Below are positions 2,247 through 23,177 of a DNA stretch of 23,177 nucleotides, piece after piece. How positions within the stretch are numbered: position 1 is the first letter of the stretch; every line of letters begins with the position of its first letter. Under the pieces are notes generated by a model. That model ran no database searches. It was given only the letters and a program-made list of their open reading frames with translations, and was not told where the DNA came from. This DNA comes from a virus, in the IMG/VR virus record IMGVR_UViG_3300032073_004267, positions 1 to 23,177 of that record. One strand, 5' to 3'. The position numbers and the translations under genes were made by a program.

Positions 2247-2894
2247 TTAAACAAAAGAAGGGCCATGAATCCAAGTAACAATGGCATATCGTGTTCCTTT
2301 GGTCACGGGTGTAACTCCATGAACAAGGTATGATGGAAAAAATATTATAGTACCAGGTGTCTTTGGATACATTGAATTTTGTTTACCATCTTCGGATTCC
2401 ATTCCAACACCATTAAAAATTAAATCACCACCTTCGTAATCATCGTTTAGAATTATAGTAGAGGATAATTTTCTCAATGATGTGGGATAAGTTGGCCCGA
2501 TATCTATGTGTGGGTCATACTTTCCTTGTTCATCACCATCATACCTCAAATATATTGATGGTTCTGCTATCATTGTTAGATTAAATTTATAAACGGACTC
2601 GTTGACCTTGTATACCAAATCTTCTAACTTTTCATAATACCAATTGAACTCAGCTGAGGGTGGAATCATTGTTTCGTATGCAATTCTTTCTGAACTCTCG
2701 GTTCTAATTCCCCCATAATTTGCATCACCAGATGTTAGGGCCTGATGTTCAGGATTGCCTTCCATCAACTTTAATAACTCTTGAAGTCTTTTTATCTCAA
2801 ATGTTGTAAAGGCTCCTTCGATAGAAAATGGTAAATTTTCTTTTAACTCTTGTGAGAGTTTTCTCATACCTAACTGATTTCTTATTAATTGCAT
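2247..2894 (-). CDS. 2OG-Fe(II) oxygenase, prolyl 4-hydroxylase type
   Basis: This 215-residue protein has the double-stranded beta-helix signature of prolyl-4-hydroxylase-like 2-oxoglutarate/Fe(II) oxygenases. The iron ligands are H129 and D131 (PHID) and H192 (LVHGV), and R202 (TRYAIVTW) is the 2-oxoglutarate salt-bridge arginine. Between them lie the typical strands SSTIILND, GGDLIF and GTIIFFPS. The family hydroxylates a protein or small-molecule substrate using O2 and 2-oxoglutarate; the substrate cannot be read from sequence. A good ribosome site (AGGAG) overlaps the end of the upstream gene, two bases away, so the two are likely translated from one message. Such oxygenases are common in T4-like marine phages and are generally of unknown role. 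Confidence 0.88.
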   Translation of the reverse strand: MQLIRNQLGMRKLSQELKENLPFSIEGAFTTFEIKRLQELLKLMEGNPEHQALTSGDANYGGIRTESSERIAYETMIPPSAEFNWYYEKLEDLVYKVNESVYKFNLTMIAEPSIYLRYDGDEQGKYDPHIDIGPTYPTSLRKLSSTIILNDDYEGGDLIFNGVGMESEDGKQNSMYPKTPGTIIFFPSYLVHGVTPVTKGTRYAIVTWIHGPSFV

Positions 2895-2895
2895 T

Positions 2896-3375
2896 TTATT
2901 CTCCTAACAATATTTCTTTGTAACCTTCTTTTTGTCGATGGTCTACACTTAAAGTCCATTGATGTGTTGGTTTAGTATTAATATCAAAACATTTATCAAG
3001 TATCATAAGTGTTTTTGGTACTGGATTTTCAATTCTTAATAATTCTCTTTGGAAAAATCCATCTGAAATATACATAATATCTAACTGTAATTTATCATAC
3101 TTACCATATTCACTATAGTAATAAATTTTTGTGTTGTAGTCTTTTTTATCAAACTTATACCAAATATTTTTTGGTGTTGATTTTGGTTGATTAGGTTTTT
3201 GCATCCACCCAATCTTCATGGTGTTCTTTGTAAATATTTTCAAATGATGTTCTATTATTTCATTAAATATATCATCTTCCATATAATTTTCTTTAGATAA
3301 AATATCATCCAATAAAAAATTATCATCATCTATATACACCAATGGGCCGAGGGTATTAGGTACTATCTTATGCAT
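2896..3375 (-). CDS. Hypothetical protein between two oxygenase genes
   Basis: I do not recognise this 159-residue protein. It is rich in Asp, Ile, Tyr and Lys and shows no signal peptide or membrane segment. It lacks an HxD/HxH pair, so it is not another oxygenase of the neighbouring type. Its start ATG lies inside the end of the upstream oxygenase gene (overlap ATGCATAA), and its own end carries the ribosome site of the downstream oxygenase. This tight coupling between two 2OG-Fe(II) oxygenases suggests it is made with them and may act as a partner or substrate; that is inference only. Confidence 0.75.
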   Translation of the reverse strand: MHKIVPNTLGPLVYIDDDNFLLDDILSKENYMEDDIFNEIIEHHLKIFTKNTMKIGWMQKPNQPKSTPKNIWYKFDKKDYNTKIYYYSEYGKYDKLQLDIMYISDGFFQRELLRIENPVPKTLMILDKCFDINTKPTHQWTLSVDHRQKEGYKEILLGE

Positions 3376-3946
3376 TGATGGTTGCTCCTACTCTAATGGT
3401 TCTCATATGACTCTTTGAGTGAATATTTCCTGCACAAACATACCTTGAACCTTCAAATTCTTTTGATTTTACCTCATGATTTAAACTACCAGGAAAGAAA
3501 ACCAAAAGTCCTTTTTCAGGATTTACATTTCCGTAATCATCTATTTCTAATGGTGGAAATCCATCACCTTCATTTAAATAAAGACAAAAAGACCAATTTG
3601 ATGGAGCATGTGCATGTTTTCTTGCATATTCTCCACTCTCATATTTTGCAACCCAAATATCGTCAACTGATAAATTGAAATTCTGTTCATCTAAAATAGA
3701 ATTTATTATATCTAAAATGACATCATATCTTTCTTTGTATTGAGAATAAATGTGAGATTTATAACCACTCATTGCACAGAATAAATTAGTCTTATGGTAC
3801 ATTCTATCACCATCATTATCGACAATCTCCATCAAGGATTTCATCAATTTGTCATCATCAATTTTATACTTAATAACACTTGGTGGTAAATTTTTTTCAT
3901 ACCACTTTACTTCAGGTGTTAAGCATTTTACAGAATCAGTTTTCAT
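3368..3946 (-). CDS. 2OG-Fe(II) oxygenase superfamily protein
   Basis: This 192-residue protein is a second, different 2-oxoglutarate/Fe(II) oxygenase. The iron site is read as H111-A-H113 (KHAHAPSNWSFCLYLN) plus H157 (GSLNHEV), with R168 (SRYVCAGN) as the likely 2-oxoglutarate arginine. The HxH form followed by a hydrophobic strand and the LLVFFPGSLNHEV segment resemble the putative 2OG-Fe(II) oxygenases found in cyanophages and other marine T4-like phages. The start codon overlaps the stop of the upstream zinc-ribbon gene (TAATG), a translational-coupling arrangement. The substrate is unknown. It is not a close copy of the oxygenase at 2247-2894, whose metal site is HxD. Confidence 0.8.
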   Translation of the reverse strand: MKTDSVKCLTPEVKWYEKNLPPSVIKYKIDDDKLMKSLMEIVDNDGDRMYHKTNLFCAMSGYKSHIYSQYKERYDVILDIINSILDEQNFNLSVDDIWVAKYESGEYARKHAHAPSNWSFCLYLNEGDGFPPLEIDDYGNVNPEKGLLVFFPGSLNHEVKSKEFEGSRYVCAGNIHSKSHMRTIRVGATINA

Positions 3947-10703: not shown

Positions 10704-13211
10704 TTAAAAAAATCTTTCTATTGTTTGTTCCTTGTCGACTGGTTTTCCCCAATTCAAACTATCGTAGAACATCTTAATTTTTTTGGTCATAGCTTGGTCA
10801 TAGATTTTATCTATATCCATAGTATCTCTGATAAATTGCATAATTTCAGGTGGGTCTTCATACCCTTTATACGCTACAACCTTCAATCCCAATGGATTGT
10901 TCTTTAAATACACCCACCTAATCTTGTCACCATTGTTGATAAAACCATATTTGTTATCTTGTTTGAAATGTCTTACCAAGTCATTATGTGCTATCGCAGC
11001 TTTCACATGAACAGGACAACCCTTCTTTGTTTCACTAAACACGGTTGTTGATTCATCATTTCTTTGTAAATATTTCCATATTCCCTTTACACCAGTAGGT
11101 GAAGATATTTCATCCAACGGATTATATTTCATGTTTTTCTTAAACCTAAGAATTCTATGGTCAATCTTATCCTTTGGTACACTCATTAAAATATCATCCA
11201 ATACATCAGCCAATAACTTTCTGAATGATGGAGCAAAGTTACTACGGACTGTATCTAAACCCTTTACCATAGTTTTATTAACTTGAACACCATTATCGGA
11301 TATAATCTTCATACCATATCGTTTCTTCACAATGAACAATCCAGCCTTTGCTACAATCTCCTGCTTAATCTCAAATCTATGAACATCAAGATTACAGAAC
11401 TTCTTAGCAAAGTAATTATAACTATTGTTGAGATAACCTTGTACTTCAGTTGCTATCTCATTAATCCTCTGAGTCATCATTACATCACTCAACTCTTTAT
11501 TTGGAAACCTATGTTTAACCAAAGGTACGGCTGAATAAAATACCGAATCAGTATCAATATAAATACAATAATCCTTGTTCGTCCCTAATTCTTTATTGTA
11601 AAAATGATTACCAATCTTTTTTGTGAATTTGATTAACTCTTGACCTGTTTTTGTAGTGGCTTCCGCATTATCCAAATCGTAAAACCTAAATACAGGTAAA
11701 CCCAAAACACCATACATGGAGTTCAACACAATCTTCTGAATATGCTGTCGTCTGTTAAAATAACCATATTGGTCATCATCTCCAGCATCACCGAACTTCT
11801 TTGCAAGTGCTCTAAACTCTTTTCGTTTATCAAACCAACTTGATAACAGTGTCGGTATCAAACCTTTTTTATCTGTCCGATATAAGATACCATTATTAGA
11901 TATGGATACATTATTCTTATCAAAGTAATCTTGTAGTTCAGTTTCAGTTAATGCACCTTGTGTTCTACCATTCATCTGAATACTATAAGTTTTATTCTTA
12001 CCACTAATAAATTCTTTAGGTTTCCAACCGACCACCTTACCCAATTTGGTTTCAGGTGATATATTCAAACTCATAATAATTGATGGATACATACTCGTAA
12101 TATCCAAATCATAAACCCAATCGTGTTTTCCTCTTTGTGGGTCTTGGACATAAGCTCCAGTAAATTTCTTTTTAAACCCTTCTTCGTTTCTTTCAGGTTT
12201 ATTGGGAGCAACCACACCAAGTTTTTTTAGATAAACCAATATAGCACCTTCTAAAAATCTTGAGTCATATTGTATGTCTTCGTATGGTACATGACCTACA
12301 TGACAAATTCCTCGTGCGACATCAATGAAATCTAACTTATCATCTAATTTTTTTACAATTCTAACATCATGTATGTTGTACTCTATAAATTGTTCCAAGT
12401 GGTTTTCATACAAATCATTAAGCGTTCCTTCATATGAAATTTTGGATGTTCCAACCTCTGATACTCCGATATCATCTAACCTATAACTTGGTTTTGAACT
12501 GAATGTAAAATTTTTATATAGGGCCAAATAATCTAAACAACTCACACCAGCAATCATATATCGTTCTCTGTATTTATTATAATAGATGTGGTTGATTGGA
12601 GATAGACAATTAGCTATATCTTCTCCCATTGTGTTGTAAATTCTATTATAAAGGTATGGAATATCAAAACCATCTATGTTCCAACCAGTTATGATTGATG
12701 GTTTAACATTCAGATAATACTTAAGAAAGGTTTTTAACATATTCTCTTCTGTAGAGAATGATTTTACTACCTCACTCTTACCCCACTTTTTATTTTTGTC
12801 AAGTTTGTGTTCCTCATCTAATACAAAACAAACATAAACATCATTTTCGTTATCGTGACAAGCTATAGATGTTATCTTGTTTTCGGCTTTCATAGGATTT
12901 GGGAATCCCTCTGTAACTTCAACCTCGATATCGATTATCATAATCTTATGACCAGTTGATGGTTCATCACTATCGGTATACATATCGATGAGAGTTCGTG
13001 TTTCAGGATTTATATCACTCTCGAATAATCCCTCGACATCCTTATCCCATCTATAAATCTTTTTGAGTTTATCACCATACAATGAAACATGAGTCCCATA
13101 ACTATCTTTTACATATGCATATTTTTTGAATGGAACCATGACATGACCATTCTTATCATCCCATATGTGAACTTTTCTTTTTGAACTATCGTAGTAAATA
13201 TTTTGATACAA
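10704..13211 (-). CDS. gp43: Replicative DNA polymerase, family B (gp43-like)
   Basis: This 835-residue polymerase (T4 gp43: 898) has the 3'-5' exonuclease motifs Exo I DIEVE (94-98), Exo II NIDGFDIPYLYNR (178-190) and Exo III YNIHDVRIV (278-286). The polymerase motifs are A (DLDITSMYPSII, 368-379), B (KIVLNSMYG, 493-501) and C (YIDTDSVFY, 551-559). The protein ends KEQTIERFF, a PIP-box-like tail of the kind that docks gp43 on gp45. The start is read as TTG at 13211, because no in-frame ATG fits and a GGAG lies 10 bases upstream. Its own promoter candidate lies at 13242-13270, behind the terminator of the receptor gene. The catalytic assignment is certain; the start codon is less so. Confidence 0.97.
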   Translation of the reverse strand: MYQNIYYDSSKRKVHIWDDKNGHVMVPFKKYAYVKDSYGTHVSLYGDKLKKIYRWDKDVEGLFESDINPETRTLIDMYTDSDEPSTGHKIMIIDIEVEVTEGFPNPMKAENKITSIACHDNENDVYVCFVLDEEHKLDKNKKWGKSEVVKSFSTEENMLKTFLKYYLNVKPSIITGWNIDGFDIPYLYNRIYNTMGEDIANCLSPINHIYYNKYRERYMIAGVSCLDYLALYKNFTFSSKPSYRLDDIGVSEVGTSKISYEGTLNDLYENHLEQFIEYNIHDVRIVKKLDDKLDFIDVARGICHVGHVPYEDIQYDSRFLEGAILVYLKKLGVVAPNKPERNEEGFKKKFTGAYVQDPQRGKHDWVYDLDITSMYPSIIMSLNISPETKLGKVVGWKPKEFISGKNKTYSIQMNGRTQGALTETELQDYFDKNNVSISNNGILYRTDKKGLIPTLLSSWFDKRKEFRALAKKFGDAGDDDQYGYFNRRQHIQKIVLNSMYGVLGLPVFRFYDLDNAEATTKTGQELIKFTKKIGNHFYNKELGTNKDYCIYIDTDSVFYSAVPLVKHRFPNKELSDVMMTQRINEIATEVQGYLNNSYNYFAKKFCNLDVHRFEIKQEIVAKAGLFIVKKRYGMKIISDNGVQVNKTMVKGLDTVRSNFAPSFRKLLADVLDDILMSVPKDKIDHRILRFKKNMKYNPLDEISSPTGVKGIWKYLQRNDESTTVFSETKKGCPVHVKAAIAHNDLVRHFKQDNKYGFINNGDKIRWVYLKNNPLGLKVVAYKGYEDPPEIMQFIRDTMDIDKIYDQAMTKKIKMFYDSLNWGKPVDKEQTIERFF

Positions 13212-13293: not shown

Positions 13294-13320
13294 AAAAAGG
13301 GGGATATATTTCAATCCCCC
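13294..13320 (-). terminator. Intrinsic terminator after the TonB-dependent receptor gene
   Basis: On the minus strand GGGGGAT (13320-13314) pairs with ATCCCCC (13305-13299) across an 8-base loop, giving a perfect 7-bp GC-rich stem directly followed by five T (13298-13294). It begins 14 bases past the receptor stop codon. Confidence 0.9.
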
Positions 13321-13333
13321 AAGTTTACCTTTT

Positions 13334-16105
13334 TTAGAAATTAACAGAAAGTCCTAAGTTAAAGTGTCTTGGTGTACCCAAGAATACTTCAGCGTTATGA
13401 GCTAAGTGAAGTTTATCACCATACCCATTGTACTTACTATTATCAACTGCGTCTTGAATGTATACATTATCAAGAGCGTTAAATAAATGACCATGTAAAG
13501 TCATGTTAAGTCCTGCTACTTCAGGTAACTGATAAGACAAGTGTAGGTCTAACTTACCATAAGATGGTGTTTTCCATACTTGTGCTCTATCTACATCACC
13601 CTCAACTTCACGAGAATCAGGACTCCAATCTGAATAGTGGTTATCATACCATCTATAAAGACCTTGTACACTCAATCCTTCGATTGGTTTTAATGTTAAT
13701 CCACCAACATAAGCTGTTTGTGGCATATCACCAACTTTTAGATTGTTTAATGCGTACTCATACTCAGTAGATGTTTGACCAATGATTTGGTTGTCATCAT
13801 TGTATTCCATCTCTGTGTAATCACCTTTTGCGTCTCCATCAAAATACCAATCACCAACACTAATAGCAACATCTAAGTCAACCATTTCGTGAAGAGCCAC
13901 TTTAGACTCAATCTCGAAACCACTATGACTTTGATTTACACCAGTTAGGTAAATGATATCAGTATCACCTGAGTCACCTTGTCCAGTTGTAACAGATTTG
14001 GTAAGGTTTCTATCCTTCCATTTAGTGTTGTAGTAACTACCTTTAACGGCAACTAAACCACTTCTGTATTCACCACCAACTTCTGTAGATATGAATTTTT
14101 CATTATCAGGATTTGTAGATACATTTCCATCATAATCAATTACATTATCTAAGATTGGGGGTTTCTGAACATAACCAACATTGGCAAACGCTGATAGTCT
14201 GTCGTCAAGATTGTATCTACCACCACCTTTAACTTGAAAAGTAGTAATAGCATCTGCTTCAACAAAGTTATCAATCTTGTTTCCATCCTCATCTACATCA
14301 AGAGCGAAATGGTCTTCATAAGTATATCCGATGGTTGAAATACCACCCATACCATAAAGATTAATCTTCTCTGTGTCGTATTGACCTTGTAGAAAAGCAC
14401 CAAACCAATCAACCGTAGTTTCGTTGTGATAGGCGATAATATCACCTAACTTAACAACTTTACCATCAGGTGCGTTATCATCGGCGAAATCTACATAGTA
14501 GTCTCCACCTAATAAATCACGAACCTCACGGGCGTGTTCTATACCAGCTGTTCTCCAATCAATACCAATCTGAACTTCAAGTTCATCTGATACATCATAG
14601 TTTAACTTTGAAATCAAACCATAAGTGTTTTGTCTATTGATTGAATTACGAAGAATACCAGTAGATTTGTTTTCGGTATCTGACCATGCAGAATCTACAT
14701 TAGCAGAGTTCTGTGCAATCTCTCCATCCCAATCCCACATCCAAGGTGAACTTGCGTACCAAGGTTCTCCTTCAACTGCAGGTTTTCTACTGACACTTCC
14801 GTAAGTACCAGTTCCACCACCACTACCACCACTCCAATAAGCTACAGAGCTTAAAGTCATTTGGTCGTTTAAATCGATAAAATGATTTAAATTCACAAGT
14901 GGTTTATGAAAGAAGTTTTCTCTTTCATTTAGGAAATCAGAACTAAACCTATCTGTAGTTTTAGCACCATACATATACCAATATTGTTGGCCTTTGTATG
15001 ATGGGTCTACAGGTGCCCAATTCTGATTGTAGAACCTACCAGCTTCGGTTTCAAACTTCTCACCTTCAGCAAATGCTGTTGGGTCGTAGCCATTACCTTC
15101 ATCATCAAACCCAATATCTTTAGCCAACTGCTGTGAGTAGGTAGCGATATTCTGTTTGTATAGGTTCTGTCCATGTCGTTGTGGTGCTCCTATTGCGTAT
15201 AACTCAAATCGTTGTTTGTCCGATACAGCATAAGATGTACCTAAATAATAAGCCCAAGCATCTGTCCAAGTTCCATCTATAAAACCATTTCCGGTTTTAC
15301 GAACAATCGTTCCACTTACTGCTAGTTTATCATTTATTAGACCTGAGTTATAATTCAAAGTGGTTTTTAAGAACCCACCCTCACCGACTTCTTGTTTCAA
15401 CTTCCCACCTTTCTCGTGAGTCGCTGGGTCGGTGATAATATTCATAGTTCCACCAATTGAAGGTGTTGCTAAATTAACAGCTGATAGTCCCCTTTGCATC
15501 TGAATTGAGGAAGTAGCGTCTCCTACTCCATCCCAATTAGACCAATAGACCCATCCGTTCTCCATATCATTTTGGGGAACTCCATTAATCATTACGGCAA
15601 CATTCCGTTGATTGAATCCACGAACATTAATACGGGCATCTCCCGCACCACCACCTTGTTGTGTAGCATATACACTTGGTGTCGTGTTAAGAATCATTGG
15701 AATGTCTTGAGAACCCAATCTCACTTCCATTTCTTCTTTACTAACATTAGTGTAAGCCACAGGTGTTGTTTCATCCGCTCTTGAAGCCAAAACTTCAAGT
15801 GCCGTGAGAGCAACAACATCAGTTTCTAAATTGAAACTAACACTCCCAACTATGTCCCCAACTTTTATTGTCTTAGTTTGGGATACATAACCGATGTATG
15901 AAGCAGTAATACCAAAAGTACCTTCGCCAGTTTCGATAACGAACTTTCCAGCATCGTCTGTAACTCCACCGAGTTCAGTACCTTCTATTATTACATTTGC
16001 TCCAACAAGTGGTTGTTCTCCGACTCCAACAAAACCAGTAACAGATTGCCCAAAGACAACCCCTACTGACATTATCAGACCGAAGATTAGATTACGATAG
16101 TTCAT
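13334..16105 (-). CDS. TonB-dependent outer-membrane receptor (complete, with signal peptide)
   Basis: This protein of 923 residues is a complete TonB-dependent receptor. It has a signal peptide (residues 1-19, MNYRNLIFGLIMSVGVVFG, cut before QSV), a carboxypeptidase-regulatory-like beta-sandwich (about 21-95: PLVGANVIIEG, GGVTDDAGKF, ASYIGYVS), and a plug domain (about 105-225: DARINVRGFNQRNVAVMING, QRGLSAV, SIGGTMNIIT). A long beta-barrel follows and the C-terminus ends in Phe (FNLGLSVNF). I chose the ATG at 16105 because an AAGGAG lies 6 bases upstream and the signal peptide starts there; a GTG at 16138 would mask the signal. The architecture is typical of Bacteroidota, Marinimicrobia and relatives. 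It lies 72 bases after a cobalamin-dependent reductase and before a terminator, so it is part of the phage transcript. The ligand is unknown. Confidence 0.95.
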   Translation of the reverse strand: MNYRNLIFGLIMSVGVVFGQSVTGFVGVGEQPLVGANVIIEGTELGGVTDDAGKFVIETGEGTFGITASYIGYVSQTKTIKVGDIVGSVSFNLETDVVALTALEVLASRADETTPVAYTNVSKEEMEVRLGSQDIPMILNTTPSVYATQQGGGAGDARINVRGFNQRNVAVMINGVPQNDMENGWVYWSNWDGVGDATSSIQMQRGLSAVNLATPSIGGTMNIITDPATHEKGGKLKQEVGEGGFLKTTLNYNSGLINDKLAVSGTIVRKTGNGFIDGTWTDAWAYYLGTSYAVSDKQRFELYAIGAPQRHGQNLYKQNIATYSQQLAKDIGFDDEGNGYDPTAFAEGEKFETEAGRFYNQNWAPVDPSYKGQQYWYMYGAKTTDRFSSDFLNERENFFHKPLVNLNHFIDLNDQMTLSSVAYWSGGSGGGTGTYGSVSRKPAVEGEPWYASSPWMWDWDGEIAQNSANVDSAWSDTENKSTGILRNSINRQNTYGLISKLNYDVSDELEVQIGIDWRTAGIEHAREVRDLLGGDYYVDFADDNAPDGKVVKLGDIIAYHNETTVDWFGAFLQGQYDTEKINLYGMGGISTIGYTYEDHFALDVDEDGNKIDNFVEADAITTFQVKGGGRYNLDDRLSAFANVGYVQKPPILDNVIDYDGNVSTNPDNEKFISTEVGGEYRSGLVAVKGSYYNTKWKDRNLTKSVTTGQGDSGDTDIIYLTGVNQSHSGFEIESKVALHEMVDLDVAISVGDWYFDGDAKGDYTEMEYNDDNQIIGQTSTEYEYALNNLKVGDMPQTAYVGGLTLKPIEGLSVQGLYRWYDNHYSDWSPDSREVEGDVDRAQVWKTPSYGKLDLHLSYQLPEVAGLNMTLHGHLFNALDNVYIQDAVDNSKYNGYGDKLHLAHNAEVFLGTPRHFNLGLSVNF

Positions 16106-16133
16106 AGTAATCTCCTTGTTTTGTTTGTGAAAT

Positions 16134-16157
16134 GACACATTTTTCTACAGGTGTGTC
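16134..16157 (-). other. Hairpin in the leader of the receptor gene
   Basis: On the minus strand GACACA (16157-16152) and TGTGTC (16139-16134) form a 6-bp stem with a 12-base loop in the gap between the reductase stop and the receptor ribosome site. There is no T-run after it, so it is not an intrinsic terminator. It may affect message stability or access of ribosomes; this is inference. Confidence 0.35.
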
Positions 16158-16177
16158 GTCTGCCTGTCCGCTTTTTT

Positions 16178-18175
16178 TTATTCATTGTCATTAGTTGGTG
16201 TAATTTCTTCTACATCACAAAAGTCACCATCACAGAATTTTTCTATGTTGGCTTCTTCGTTACTAATAACTCCGAAACTTAACTTACCGAGTTTCTTTGC
16301 TTGTTTATTGTACTCTTTTTCATCAATAGACTCGTAAGGCATTTGTTTATATGCACCTAAGTCATGTCGTGGTAATAATGAAATACCTTTCAAGTGATAT
16401 TGAAAATAATTTAATACTTGTGGTATTTCATTTGCTTCTTTTTCAGGATCGAAAGTCACGGTACAACTGACTTGGTTATCTGCCCAATGTCTTTGCATAA
16501 AAGCTGCTAAACTGAATTGTTCCCATATTGATAACTCACCTACGGTTCTAATACCCTCTCCAACATCAACAGGAACCTCAACCACCATTGTGGTATCTTC
16601 TGAACCAAAAGCTGGTTCTATCTTATAACCTGCCCTTTTCATAGGTTCTAATAATTCTGAATGCTTTGATACTCTTATTCTCCTAATGTAAAAACGACTC
16701 TCAGGGTAATGTAATCCTGGAGTCGCTCCTGCTAATAGTGAAACTGTACCACTTGGTTTTACCGATGTGGTTTTGATTGACTTTGGAATGGCAAACCAAT
16801 CAGAGTACATATCATCCCATTCTTGTATTGTATCGTATCCCTCTTCTAACCAATTCTTCAATGTATCAATACCACGATTGGTTATGAATTGTGCTACTCC
16901 ACTTACACTACATCCGATTCTTCTGTTTCTCAACATAACTCGGTTTGTATCACTCCAATGTGTCTTACCTAATGTAACTGATTTTGCGTAAAGATAAGCA
17001 TACTTGAGTGTTCTTTTATAATCATCCAAGTCATCGTGATTATCAGGAAAAGTTTCGACCAAACAACATAGTTCGTAACTTTCTAATGTTTGTTCTAAAC
17101 AAGGATTACCACCCATGGCTCTATGGTCTTTGTTGTCTCCACCATTCTTCATACGAGAATATTTTCTCATATTGTCTAACCATGCAAATCCTGGTTCACC
17201 ATTATCTACAATTCTCTTAGAAGCTTCAGTATAATCCATACCAAGTTCAGCAAATATTGAATTGTTTGAAGTCCAACCATATTGGTCACGATGTGGATTT
17301 ACTTTATAATTCTTTAAATCTAAATATTCTTCATTGTCAGCATCACCAAATACAATCTCAGCAGTTCTTCTTACATTACCAGCCACAACACATTTACCAA
17401 TCAAATTCATTATGTCTACGATTGTTGTTATTGTAATTGGTTCACCACTATTACTTTCGAGAACAGAAGTGATACTTTCGTGAACCTCTTGTAATGGTTC
17501 AGGACCACTCGAAACACCACCAAAACCTTTGATTGGTACTCCTGCTGGTCTTACTATAGAGTAATCAAACTCTACTGGTGCTTGACCATGAAAGTAACTT
17601 TCCAAAAGTAGTTTAACAGATTCTACCCAACCTTCTCTCGTGTCAGGTATTTGAAAAGTTTGTGGGTCTCTATCCTTGTCCACTCCCTTTACTACTATTT
17701 CGTTAGCACCTTTTGTATCAAATCCAACTCCTACACCCAACATACTTGCATCCATAAGGAAACAAAATGGTTTAGCATAGTCTTCTTTGAGTGTCTTTGT
17801 TGATACAAATGCACAATTGTTTAGGGCGGCGTATAAACCTTTTTCCTCTGTGACTGGTGTACCCATAGCCCACAGACCGCGTCCAGGAGGCAGAAACTTC
17901 ATAGTAAATATACGCTCATACATATCTTGAGCACTTCTTTGAGCTTGCCACGCATTCCACCCTAATTGGTGTGATTCAATCCAATTCTTTTGCATAGTGT
18001 AAGTACCTTCTACAACTCTTTGTACGGTCTCCCACCATCTTTCATTTTTTCCATTGTCTTTTATTCTCGAATAAGTTCTCATGTATACTAACTCACCCAA
18101 ACCATTAAAACCAAATGGTGCCTTTTTTCTTTTATATTTTTTTATAAAATTATCCGATAACTGAAATTTTTCCAT
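16178..18175 (-). CDS. nrdJ: Adenosylcobalamin-dependent (class II) ribonucleotide reductase, monomeric type
   Basis: This 665-residue enzyme reduces ribonucleotides to deoxyribonucleotides for phage DNA synthesis using coenzyme B12. The cysteines match the Lactobacillus leichmannii triphosphate reductase pattern: C121 (NNCAFVS) and C370 are the redox pair, C359 in GNPCLEQ is the thiyl-radical cysteine, with N357 and E361 as active-site residues, and C648-x4-C653 near the end is the C-terminal shuttle pair. The spacings C359-C370 (11) and C648-C653 (5) equal those in the Lactobacillus enzyme. It is somewhat shorter than that enzyme (739). An AGGAG ribosome site precedes the ATG, and a motif shared with the gp32 leader lies 45 bases upstream (18221-18237). 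No class I nrdA/nrdB genes are in the window. Confidence 0.93.
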   Translation of the reverse strand: MEKFQLSDNFIKKYKRKKAPFGFNGLGELVYMRTYSRIKDNGKNERWWETVQRVVEGTYTMQKNWIESHQLGWNAWQAQRSAQDMYERIFTMKFLPPGRGLWAMGTPVTEEKGLYAALNNCAFVSTKTLKEDYAKPFCFLMDASMLGVGVGFDTKGANEIVVKGVDKDRDPQTFQIPDTREGWVESVKLLLESYFHGQAPVEFDYSIVRPAGVPIKGFGGVSSGPEPLQEVHESITSVLESNSGEPITITTIVDIMNLIGKCVVAGNVRRTAEIVFGDADNEEYLDLKNYKVNPHRDQYGWTSNNSIFAELGMDYTEASKRIVDNGEPGFAWLDNMRKYSRMKNGGDNKDHRAMGGNPCLEQTLESYELCCLVETFPDNHDDLDDYKRTLKYAYLYAKSVTLGKTHWSDTNRVMLRNRRIGCSVSGVAQFITNRGIDTLKNWLEEGYDTIQEWDDMYSDWFAIPKSIKTTSVKPSGTVSLLAGATPGLHYPESRFYIRRIRVSKHSELLEPMKRAGYKIEPAFGSEDTTMVVEVPVDVGEGIRTVGELSIWEQFSLAAFMQRHWADNQVSCTVTFDPEKEANEIPQVLNYFQYHLKGISLLPRHDLGAYKQMPYESIDEKEYNKQAKKLGKLSFGVISNEEANIEKFCDGDFCDVEEITPTNDNE

Positions 18176-21961: not shown

Positions 21962-22729
21962 TTAAGAATTAAAAAGGTCATCAAAAGCATCACTTACATT
22001 TTCAGTTGTACTAACTGCTGATTTAAGTGTAGATGCTGGTACTGATTCTTCTTTAGTTTCTTCTGAACTCTCTTCCTCATTTTCAGGATTTAACCAAGTG
22101 TTAAGAGCTTCACTTAGTTCATCATAAGATAATTCTTGATAAACTTCGGTGATGTCTTTTTGGTTGTCCAAGATATTCTCAAGTTGAGCTTTATCTTCTG
22201 TGATTGGTGTTTGATTTGGTTTAACACGAATGTTTGTTTTTGGAAACGATGCTCCAGTTTCTTCCGCGGTTAAAAACTCAACTCCAACATCACGACCATT
22301 TAATGGGTCAGCGATATCACCATAATCAGGATCTGCTATGATTGATAGTAGTTCTTGATAAACAGTTTTACCAAAACCCCAAAACTTAACACCTTGTGCT
22401 TCTTCTCCACGAACCACTACTGGTGCGAATGTTCTGAGTTTTGCTTCCAACTTCTTACCAAGTCTCCAATCCTCACGATTACCACTTGACTTTAACTTGT
22501 CAGCAAACTCTTCGATTGGGTCAGGTCTTCCAAATGAAGTTGGTGAAAGATAAGACTTTCCACCTAAGTCATAATGAAAAAACAACTCAATAAACGGAGT
22601 GTCTTTTTGTAGTTTGTAAGGTACTATTCTGATTTGAGTTTTACCCGGTTGGGGTTTCCATAGATTTGTGGTACGAGTATTAGTTGTTTGTAACTGAGCT
22701 AATCTCTTCCGTACTGCGTTAATATCCAT
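21962..22729 (-). CDS. gp32: Single-stranded DNA-binding protein (gp32-like), lacking the zinc cysteines
   Basis: This 255-residue protein matches phage gp32 in order of parts. There is a short N-terminal self-association helix (MDINAVRKRLAQLQ), an OB-type core with LWKPQPGKTQIRIVPY, FFHYDLGGKSYLSPTSFG and KFWGFGKTVYQELL, and an acidic Ser/Glu-rich tail (about 215-255) ending SDAFDDLFNS, which in T4 recruits partner proteins. T4 gp32 (301 residues) holds zinc with three Cys and one His; this protein has no cysteine at all, so the zinc site is lost. The ATG is preceded by AAGGAG at 8 bases and by an AU-rich leader that may serve autoregulation. It heads the block whose next gene is uvsX. Confidence 0.9.
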   Translation of the reverse strand: MDINAVRKRLAQLQTTNTRTTNLWKPQPGKTQIRIVPYKLQKDTPFIELFFHYDLGGKSYLSPTSFGRPDPIEEFADKLKSSGNREDWRLGKKLEAKLRTFAPVVVRGEEAQGVKFWGFGKTVYQELLSIIADPDYGDIADPLNGRDVGVEFLTAEETGASFPKTNIRVKPNQTPITEDKAQLENILDNQKDITEVYQELSYDELSEALNTWLNPENEEESSEETKEESVPASTLKSAVSTTENVSDAFDDLFNS

Positions 22730-22916: not shown

Positions 22917-23085
22917 ATATAAATTGGAAAGTTAGGGAATACAAACACACCCTTCTCATCGCTTTAATTCTGTAAGGATACTTTCCAAAAATGAAAATTT
23001 GGGGATGCAGGATTTGCGAATACCTACAACTTTCAGACTCAGATTTTTTCTACCTTGTACCTAACACCCAAAAGTTACTTTGGTT
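22841..23085 (-). ncRNA. Candidate structured non-coding RNA (unknown family)
   Basis: No reading frame of useful length crosses this stretch; all three minus-strand frames stop within 25 bases of the right edge. On the minus strand several stem-loops follow one another: CCAAA/TTTGG (23083-23068), GTAGG/CCTGC around an ATT-CGCA-AAT inner stem (23027-23007), a 9-bp TTGGAAAGT/ACTTTCCAA stem (22988-22924) and the terminator-like stem at 22916-22841. A row of helices ending in a T-run is what a small phage RNA would look like. The 5' end is unknown and may lie beyond 23085. It does not match tRNA, and I see no tmRNA tag frame. The rest of the interval to 23177 shows nothing I can name. Confidence 0.35.
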
Positions 23086-23177
23086 CTCCTCAATGATGGT
23101 TAGTCATCGTCAAAGTGAGTACAACCTCTGTGCCATTACCTTAACTCTCTGAGTTTAGTTTATTCGGTCACAAGATG

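Follow-up and report, generated by a model that had tools for sequence, protein, structure and literature searches.

Receptor gene and genomic context

The window, by which we mean the whole stretch of 23,177 bases analysed here from an IMG/VR virus record, has all of its large genes on the minus strand and encodes a gp32-like SSB, UvsX, a 5'-3' exonuclease, a DnaB-like helicase, a ribonucleotide reductase (nrdJ), a TonB-dependent receptor (TBDR), a DNA polymerase (polB), a sliding clamp, a PLP enzyme, two methyltransferases, a clamp loader, ClpP and others. The TBDR gene sits in this T4-like replication module, between nrdJ and polB and on the same strand as both (Table 1). An earlier sequence-only reading had described a complete receptor with its own terminator at this position, and this was borne out by an intact frame of 923 codons with no internal stop, by the Pfam domains, by a structural model with plug and barrel, and by a terminator-like hairpin 3' of the gene. 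Elsewhere in the window, a manA RNA motif (Rfam RF01745, 63.7 bits; 23007-23170, minus strand) was found upstream of the gp32-like gene, and two 2OG-Fe(II) oxygenase genes (2247-3946, minus strand) lie near a 738-aa ORF (3-2216) without a family match.

Table 1. Features of the receptor locus, in window coordinates.
Feature	Position	Strand	Basis or remark
TBDR gene, 923 aa	13334..16105	minus	ATG at 16105, stop ends at 13334
Signal peptide, residues 1-19 (MNYRNLIFGLIMSVGVVFGQ)	16049..16105	minus	by inspection only; low-confidence part of model
CarbopepD_reg_2 N-terminal domain, residues 29-101	15803..16021	minus	Pfam PF13715, E 1.5e-13
Putative TonB box EVLASR, residues 104-109	15779..15796	minus	assigned by position and likeness
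Plug domain, residues 112-220	15446..15772	minus	Pfam PF07715, E 1.6e-13
Outer-membrane beta barrel, residues 233-923	13337..15409	minus	predicted structure and PDB matches
Shine-Dalgarno AAGGAG of TBDR gene	16112..16117	minus	sequence
Terminator-like hairpin and T-run, 3' of TBDR gene	13299..13320	minus	
H-type pseudoknot leader RNA	16134..16167	minus	11 pairs, covariation
Leader stem 1	16167-16163 with 16151-16147	minus	ACAGG/CCUGU
Leader stem 2	16157-16152 with 16139-16134	minus	GACACA/UGUGUC
nrdJ, adenosylcobalamin-dependent (class II) ribonucleotide reductase, upstream slot edge	16178..18175	minus	TIGR02505, E 3.8e-108
polB, T4-like family B DNA polymerase, downstream slot edge	10704..13211	minus	PHROG 262

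The predicted structure of the gene product (AlphaFold2, with 90 relatives as input) contains a complete plug and barrel (pLDDT 83.7, pTM 0.79), and its top PDB matches are TBDRs throughout, including Fiu, BtuB, FhuA and PqqU. As modelled, with the Plug inside a C-terminal barrel, the protein is a TonB-dependent receptor, and the putative TonB box is invariant in 20 diverse phage TBDRs. The fold comparison is nearly tied between receptors (Z of 38.5 for Fiu, 38.0 for BtuB, whose structures range over about 36-38, and 36.6 for FyuA) and does not separate ligands. No SusC/RagA model was among the NCBIfam matches of the protein, and its gene has no SusD lipoprotein neighbour, the adjoining genes being nrdJ and polB. 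We consider it improbable that the protein is a siderophore, haem or other metal receptor. The similarities that would point that way, to iron TBDR folds and, weakly, to the haem/lactoferrin receptor model TIGR01786 (E 1.9e-14, far below its cut-off), reflect the plug and the fold that TBDRs have in common, and iron genes were not noticed next to the phage gene or the examined cellular genes, whose neighbours are partly annotated.

Occurrence in related phages

In a scan of viral contigs, 323 IMG/VR contigs were found to encode relatives of the receptor. Related contigs carry the gene at the same place: among the best 80 of these 323, picked by receptor similarity, nrdJ is directly upstream in 74 of 74 readable loci, and on the downstream side the first gene recognised is polB in 71 of 71. 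When loci were picked via nrdJ or the helicase, nrdJ was followed, among recognised window genes, by the receptor in 79 and by polB in 13, so the receptor is common but not universal. Of 12 records examined further, ten (13-96 kb) have no receptor gene in this position, and no copy was found elsewhere in these ten. A 130-kb relative (G013) has tail sheath-like and baseplate-like genes, identified by inspection of translations, and inspection further revealed a large cluster of surface-polysaccharide genes at 65-82 kb. In a 130-kb phage record of this kind (G013 and L289, 1-4427), we additionally noticed a prepilin-like ORF and a secreted ORF without a Pfam match.

The possibilities of an assembly chimera and of host contamination were both ruled out, the first because independent contigs share the nrdJ-TBDR-polB order, and the second because more than 60 phage sequences form one clade and the composition is phage-like. 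The sequence-only reading had envisaged that composition might mark the gene as host-derived contamination; its third-position G+C (0.26) instead falls among the values of the other phage genes (0.20-0.32), and the rise in G+C over the gene is thus an amino-acid effect.

The region between nrdJ and polB contains, in different phages, the receptor alone, the receptor with glutamine synthetase, glutamine synthetase alone, the receptor with other genes, or no receptor-sized gene; the loci in this survey were not fully de-duplicated, and glutamine synthetase was identified by Pfam. Three of the slots without a receptor-sized gene carry a tRNA-Ala. Examples of the glutamine synthetase genes are found at L001 7340-8311, L254 5394-6517 and L179 7996-9073. 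Two deletion scars were observed: at L280 11386-11494 just both ends of a glutamine synthetase gene are left, and at L217 4400-4560 the last receptor codons remain together with a hairpin matching the terminator-like hairpin of the window. The contigs L228 and L040, which are 99.5-99.9% identical to L217 in nrdJ and polB, hold the whole receptor gene. This comparison and the slot variants show the receptor gene to be useful but dispensable, and the gap between nrdJ and polB to be a cargo slot with exchange and loss.

Origin, selection and exchange

The nearest cellular relatives of the phage receptor are found in Ca. Marinimicrobia (Fidelibacterota), at 58-68% identity over the full length, with the same domains, TonB box region and plug. 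In a FastTree phylogeny of 97 sequences, 66 phage receptors form one group (support 99) nested in Marinimicrobia receptors, thus yielding the donor that the sequence-only reading had sought from a receptor tree. Judging by the sequences, the gene was acquired essentially once from Marinimicrobia-type cells, long ago. The cellular genes differ from the phage copies, which form their own clade, in that they stand mostly alone beside housekeeping genes and lack the pseudoknot leader described below. One cellular sequence falls inside the phage group on a long branch; it is the first of two tandem receptors on a short Marinimicrobia MAG contig (L082, 986-4266) and may represent a donor lineage or a transfer back. 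The hosts of these marine T4-like viruses are probably Marinimicrobia, on the basis of receptor ancestry only. Searching Marinimicrobia genomes for the phage polB gave only two matches, at 33-35% identity and outside this phage group.

The median dN/dS of the receptor among 125 phage copies compared is 0.13, indicating purifying selection, as had been suspected from the intact frame; the helicase, nrdJ, polB and uvsX have values of 0.045-0.066. Taken together, the comparisons identify the receptor gene as a real, common and selected phage gene. That it is instead a functionless captured host gene, a contaminant or an assembly product is very improbable: its absence from L217, which is otherwise nearly identical to L228 and L040, does show it to be dispensable, but hundreds of phage copies at one site and in one clade, a low dN/dS and a dedicated, covarying leader stand against this.

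The receptor also has a history of its own within these phages. Between the window and L001, dS is 0.29 for the receptor, compared to 0.79 for polB and 0.71 for nrdJ (the L001 nrdJ coming from a different slice of that contig). Codon bias was ruled out as a cause of the low synonymous divergence, as the ENC of the receptor gene is higher than that of polB. Receptor identity and polB identity show almost no correlation (rho 0.11), and of the 25 receptor splits with strong support, 15 conflict with strong polB splits. It follows from these observations that the site stays fixed while receptor alleles pass from one phage lineage to another, and we thus regard them, on phylogenetic grounds, as swapped within the slot.

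A pseudoknot leader RNA upstream of the receptor

Upstream of the receptor gene we found a predicted H-type pseudoknot with an A-rich loop between its stems (Table 1), followed by some 15-25 nt of A-rich, unstructured-looking sequence up to the Shine-Dalgarno, whose GGAG is invariant in a 65-row leader alignment. Of 76 distinct sequences upstream of phage receptor genes, 74 have the motif AAATGYGYC at 33-48 nt from the start codon; its upstream AUG was rejected as the start of a conserved leader peptide, since by inspection the frame varies. In about 64-65 aligned distinct phage leaders, 97.9% of cells are paired, and two-sided changes, 29 cells in all, occur in five of the 11 pairs. This pairing and covariation was matched in none of 500 shuffles, and slid versions scored far lower on both; the shuffles lose the relatedness of the sequences, whereas the slid versions keep it but give an advantage to a structure that was itself drawn from these sequences. 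Among viral contigs, the pattern precedes the receptor in 100 of the 100 matches listed with enough sequence, and the single copy in the window is the one before the receptor. It was found in none of 245 Marinimicrobia genomes, nor in the slots without a receptor, nor in the cellular loci.

No Rfam family fits the leader fold at E up to 10; the best match, DUF2815 RNA, reaches 18.3 bits where its gathering score is 41.2, and PreQ1 reaches 11.2 where 39 would be needed, at another register. The leader is apparently an undescribed structured RNA dedicated to this gene. Short H-type pseudoknots in the leader, upstream of the ribosome-binding site, are known from the preQ1-I and SAM-II riboswitches and from the T4 gene 32 operator, where gp32 binds the pseudoknot and an unstructured A/U-rich stretch extends to the ribosome-binding site. 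The geometry of the phage leader is comparable to that of the gene 32 operator, and the window has a gp32-like gene (21962-22729); the phage leader differs from all three in having its own sequence consensus and in preceding only the TBDR. Its layout fits translational control, with either a ligand or a protein as the effector. It is possible, though in our view doubtful, that the leader is a phage-specific new class of riboswitch sensing the nutrient imported by the downstream receptor, possibly a flavin, in which case the two would form a virus-borne sensor-and-uptake unit. The leader and the cargo-slot behaviour of the locus both go beyond what the sequence-only reading had noted.

Possible function and ligand

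Among phage copies, the most conserved parts of the receptor are the TonB box and the plug (80% of plug columns, residues 112-232, are invariant), and the most variable are the signal peptide and then the CarbopepD_reg_2 domain. Mean entropy is 0.48 in the long loops and 0.46 in the membrane strands, whose limits are approximate. Residue conservation thus argues for transport, with the loops no more variable than the strands, and import of some nutrient is likely. The same data bear on altered phage adsorption, with the protein acting as a decoy, a replacement receptor or a means of superinfection exclusion at the outer membrane, which we regard as rather unlikely. Phages are known to use TBDRs such as FhuA as receptors (according to PDB titles), the alleles are swapped between lineages, and the polysaccharide genes of G013 make surface remodelling plausible. 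Nevertheless, the outer loops are not hypervariable, a role in adsorption would not need the TonB box and plug to be the best conserved parts, and the gene is located in a replication module. Superinfection blocking and the replacement of a receptor lost by the host had both been put forward from the sequence; the former is less likely, as an arms-race role predicts variable outer loops that are not seen, and nothing points to the latter.

Cellular homologues provide indications of the ligand. In 18 of 60 cellular homologue loci, which come from Bacteroidota, Ignavibacteriota, Calditrichota, KSB1 and Gracilimonas, the gene directly downstream encodes a PF01663 nucleotide pyrophosphatase / type I phosphodiesterase; the family was assigned with Pfam where members were tested and through BLAST clustering otherwise. 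An FMN riboswitch is found upstream in four of 80 homologous cellular loci, where about 0.05 cases directly before a TBDR would be expected by chance. In L131, the order is FMN riboswitch, ribE, ribBA, ribH, TBDR and pyrophosphatase, with the TBDR 50% identical to the phage receptor over its full length; in L152 and L156, the riboswitch directly precedes two TBDR genes and a pyrophosphatase; and in L161 it precedes two TBDR genes at the edge of a contig. RibH is absent from the L152 and L156 genomes and from five Marinimicrobia hosts checked, and present in 14 of 14 control genomes. Over 149 genomes, RibH is missing in 28 of the 31 Marinimicrobia genomes with a close orthologue of the receptor (and present in three) versus 53 of 118 others (Fisher 3.7e-6, uncorrected for relatedness or genome incompleteness).

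The TBDRs of L131, L152 and L156 belong to the same protein family as the phage TBDR but are cellular genes of Bacteroidota in rib operons or beside pyrophosphatase genes, neither of which accompanies the phage gene; an FMN riboswitch was likewise not found for the phage copies. Around the Marinimicrobia orthologues, only housekeeping genes were recognised, with no adjoining flavin genes, and the FMN riboswitches read in Marinimicrobia precede rib genes, none of them a TBDR. Because such neighbours are missing around the copies in phages and Marinimicrobia, the ligand is assigned by homology (about 47-50% identity), and we infer a flavin or some other cofactor of nucleotide type. Flavins lead over B12 owing to the pyrophosphatase neighbours, the four FMN riboswitch loci and the Marinimicrobia carriers mostly without riboflavin synthesis; a flavin specifically remains a tentative assignment, at somewhat less than even odds. 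ThyX, an FAD enzyme, is encoded in five of 14 records of related phages, and one of these five lacks the TBDR; the PnuC transporter is encoded in none of the 14.

The adenosylcobalamin-dependent NrdJ encoded directly upstream raises the alternative of a cobalamin (B12) receptor supplying that enzyme, which we consider unlikely. nrdJ adjoins the receptor gene in every readable locus (74 of 74 in the best 80 of 323), but this adjacency alone is uninformative because every phage of the clade that was read has nrdJ, and since phages with nrdJ and no TBDR exist, nrdJ does not need the receptor. BtuB structures are among the closest folds (Z 36-38), but Fiu and FyuA fit as well, and the cellular neighbours point to flavins or nucleotides. 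No cobalamin riboswitch was detected in the window (E up to 1) or in 19 scanned cellular loci, although such a riboswitch is not present for every BtuB.

Our main reading, to which we assign a probability of roughly 0.55, is that the phage TBDR is an auxiliary metabolic gene, a TonB-powered importer made with the replication proteins. The gene is host-derived and kept under selection, as expected of an auxiliary metabolic gene, even though some closely related phages live without it. Its placement by DNA-synthesis genes and its conserved leader suggest boosted vitamin-like uptake during replication, and a cargo slot common to glutamine synthetase fits nutrient import. Among the roles listed by the sequence-only reading, nutrient import fits best, given the invariant TonB box, the conserved plug and surface loops, the shared slot and the vitamin-linked cellular homologues. 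An infected cell would express the receptor together with the phage replication proteins, with the pseudoknot setting its translation as either a small-molecule sensor (riboswitch) or a protein-binding operator. The receptor would then reach the host outer membrane and, powered by host TonB-ExbBD, take up a scarce small molecule (vitamin-like, our best guess being flavins) needed for virus production. The gene may thus link virus replication to vitamin auxotrophy in Marinimicrobia, a phylum that is abundant in the ocean and uncultivated. The ligand and the leader RNA are each open to standard test methods.

In Bacteroidales, most TBDRs with an FMN riboswitch belong to a sister subfamily (31% identity) that is essentially absent from Marinimicrobia. 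The riboswitch stands directly before these genes in L339, L341, L352-L354, L356, L357, L359, L360 and L362, and the subfamily is a candidate outer-membrane flavin receptor on which no paper was found in the literature searched.

Comparison with receptors of marine megaphages

The remark in the sequence-only reading that phages usually bind these receptors instead of encoding them is a fair rule, but TBDR genes have already been reported in marine megaphages (Mar_Mega_1, LR745206), where they were called SusC-like and proposed as an auxiliary metabolic gene (PMC9723777). This was the only report of phage TBDR genes found, most subscription journals being outside the search, and import across the outer membrane has hardly been considered as virus-borne. 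The megaphage proteins are not close to the present receptor (29% identity, in the plug region), and the phages exceed 600 kb. The present TBDR differs from them in receptor subfamily, phage group and genomic setting, and a leader RNA of its own precedes it; it occurs in hundreds of copies in a widespread marine phage group, with an identified donor phylum and a defined cargo slot. In LR745206 (L288, 7944-11460), the TBDR is not in an nrdJ-polB slot but is followed by PnuC, a transporter of NMN/nicotinamide riboside, and a NadR-like protein in one operon. This is an apparent phage-encoded vitamin B3 uptake set and, by gene content, an independent case fitting vitamin uptake.
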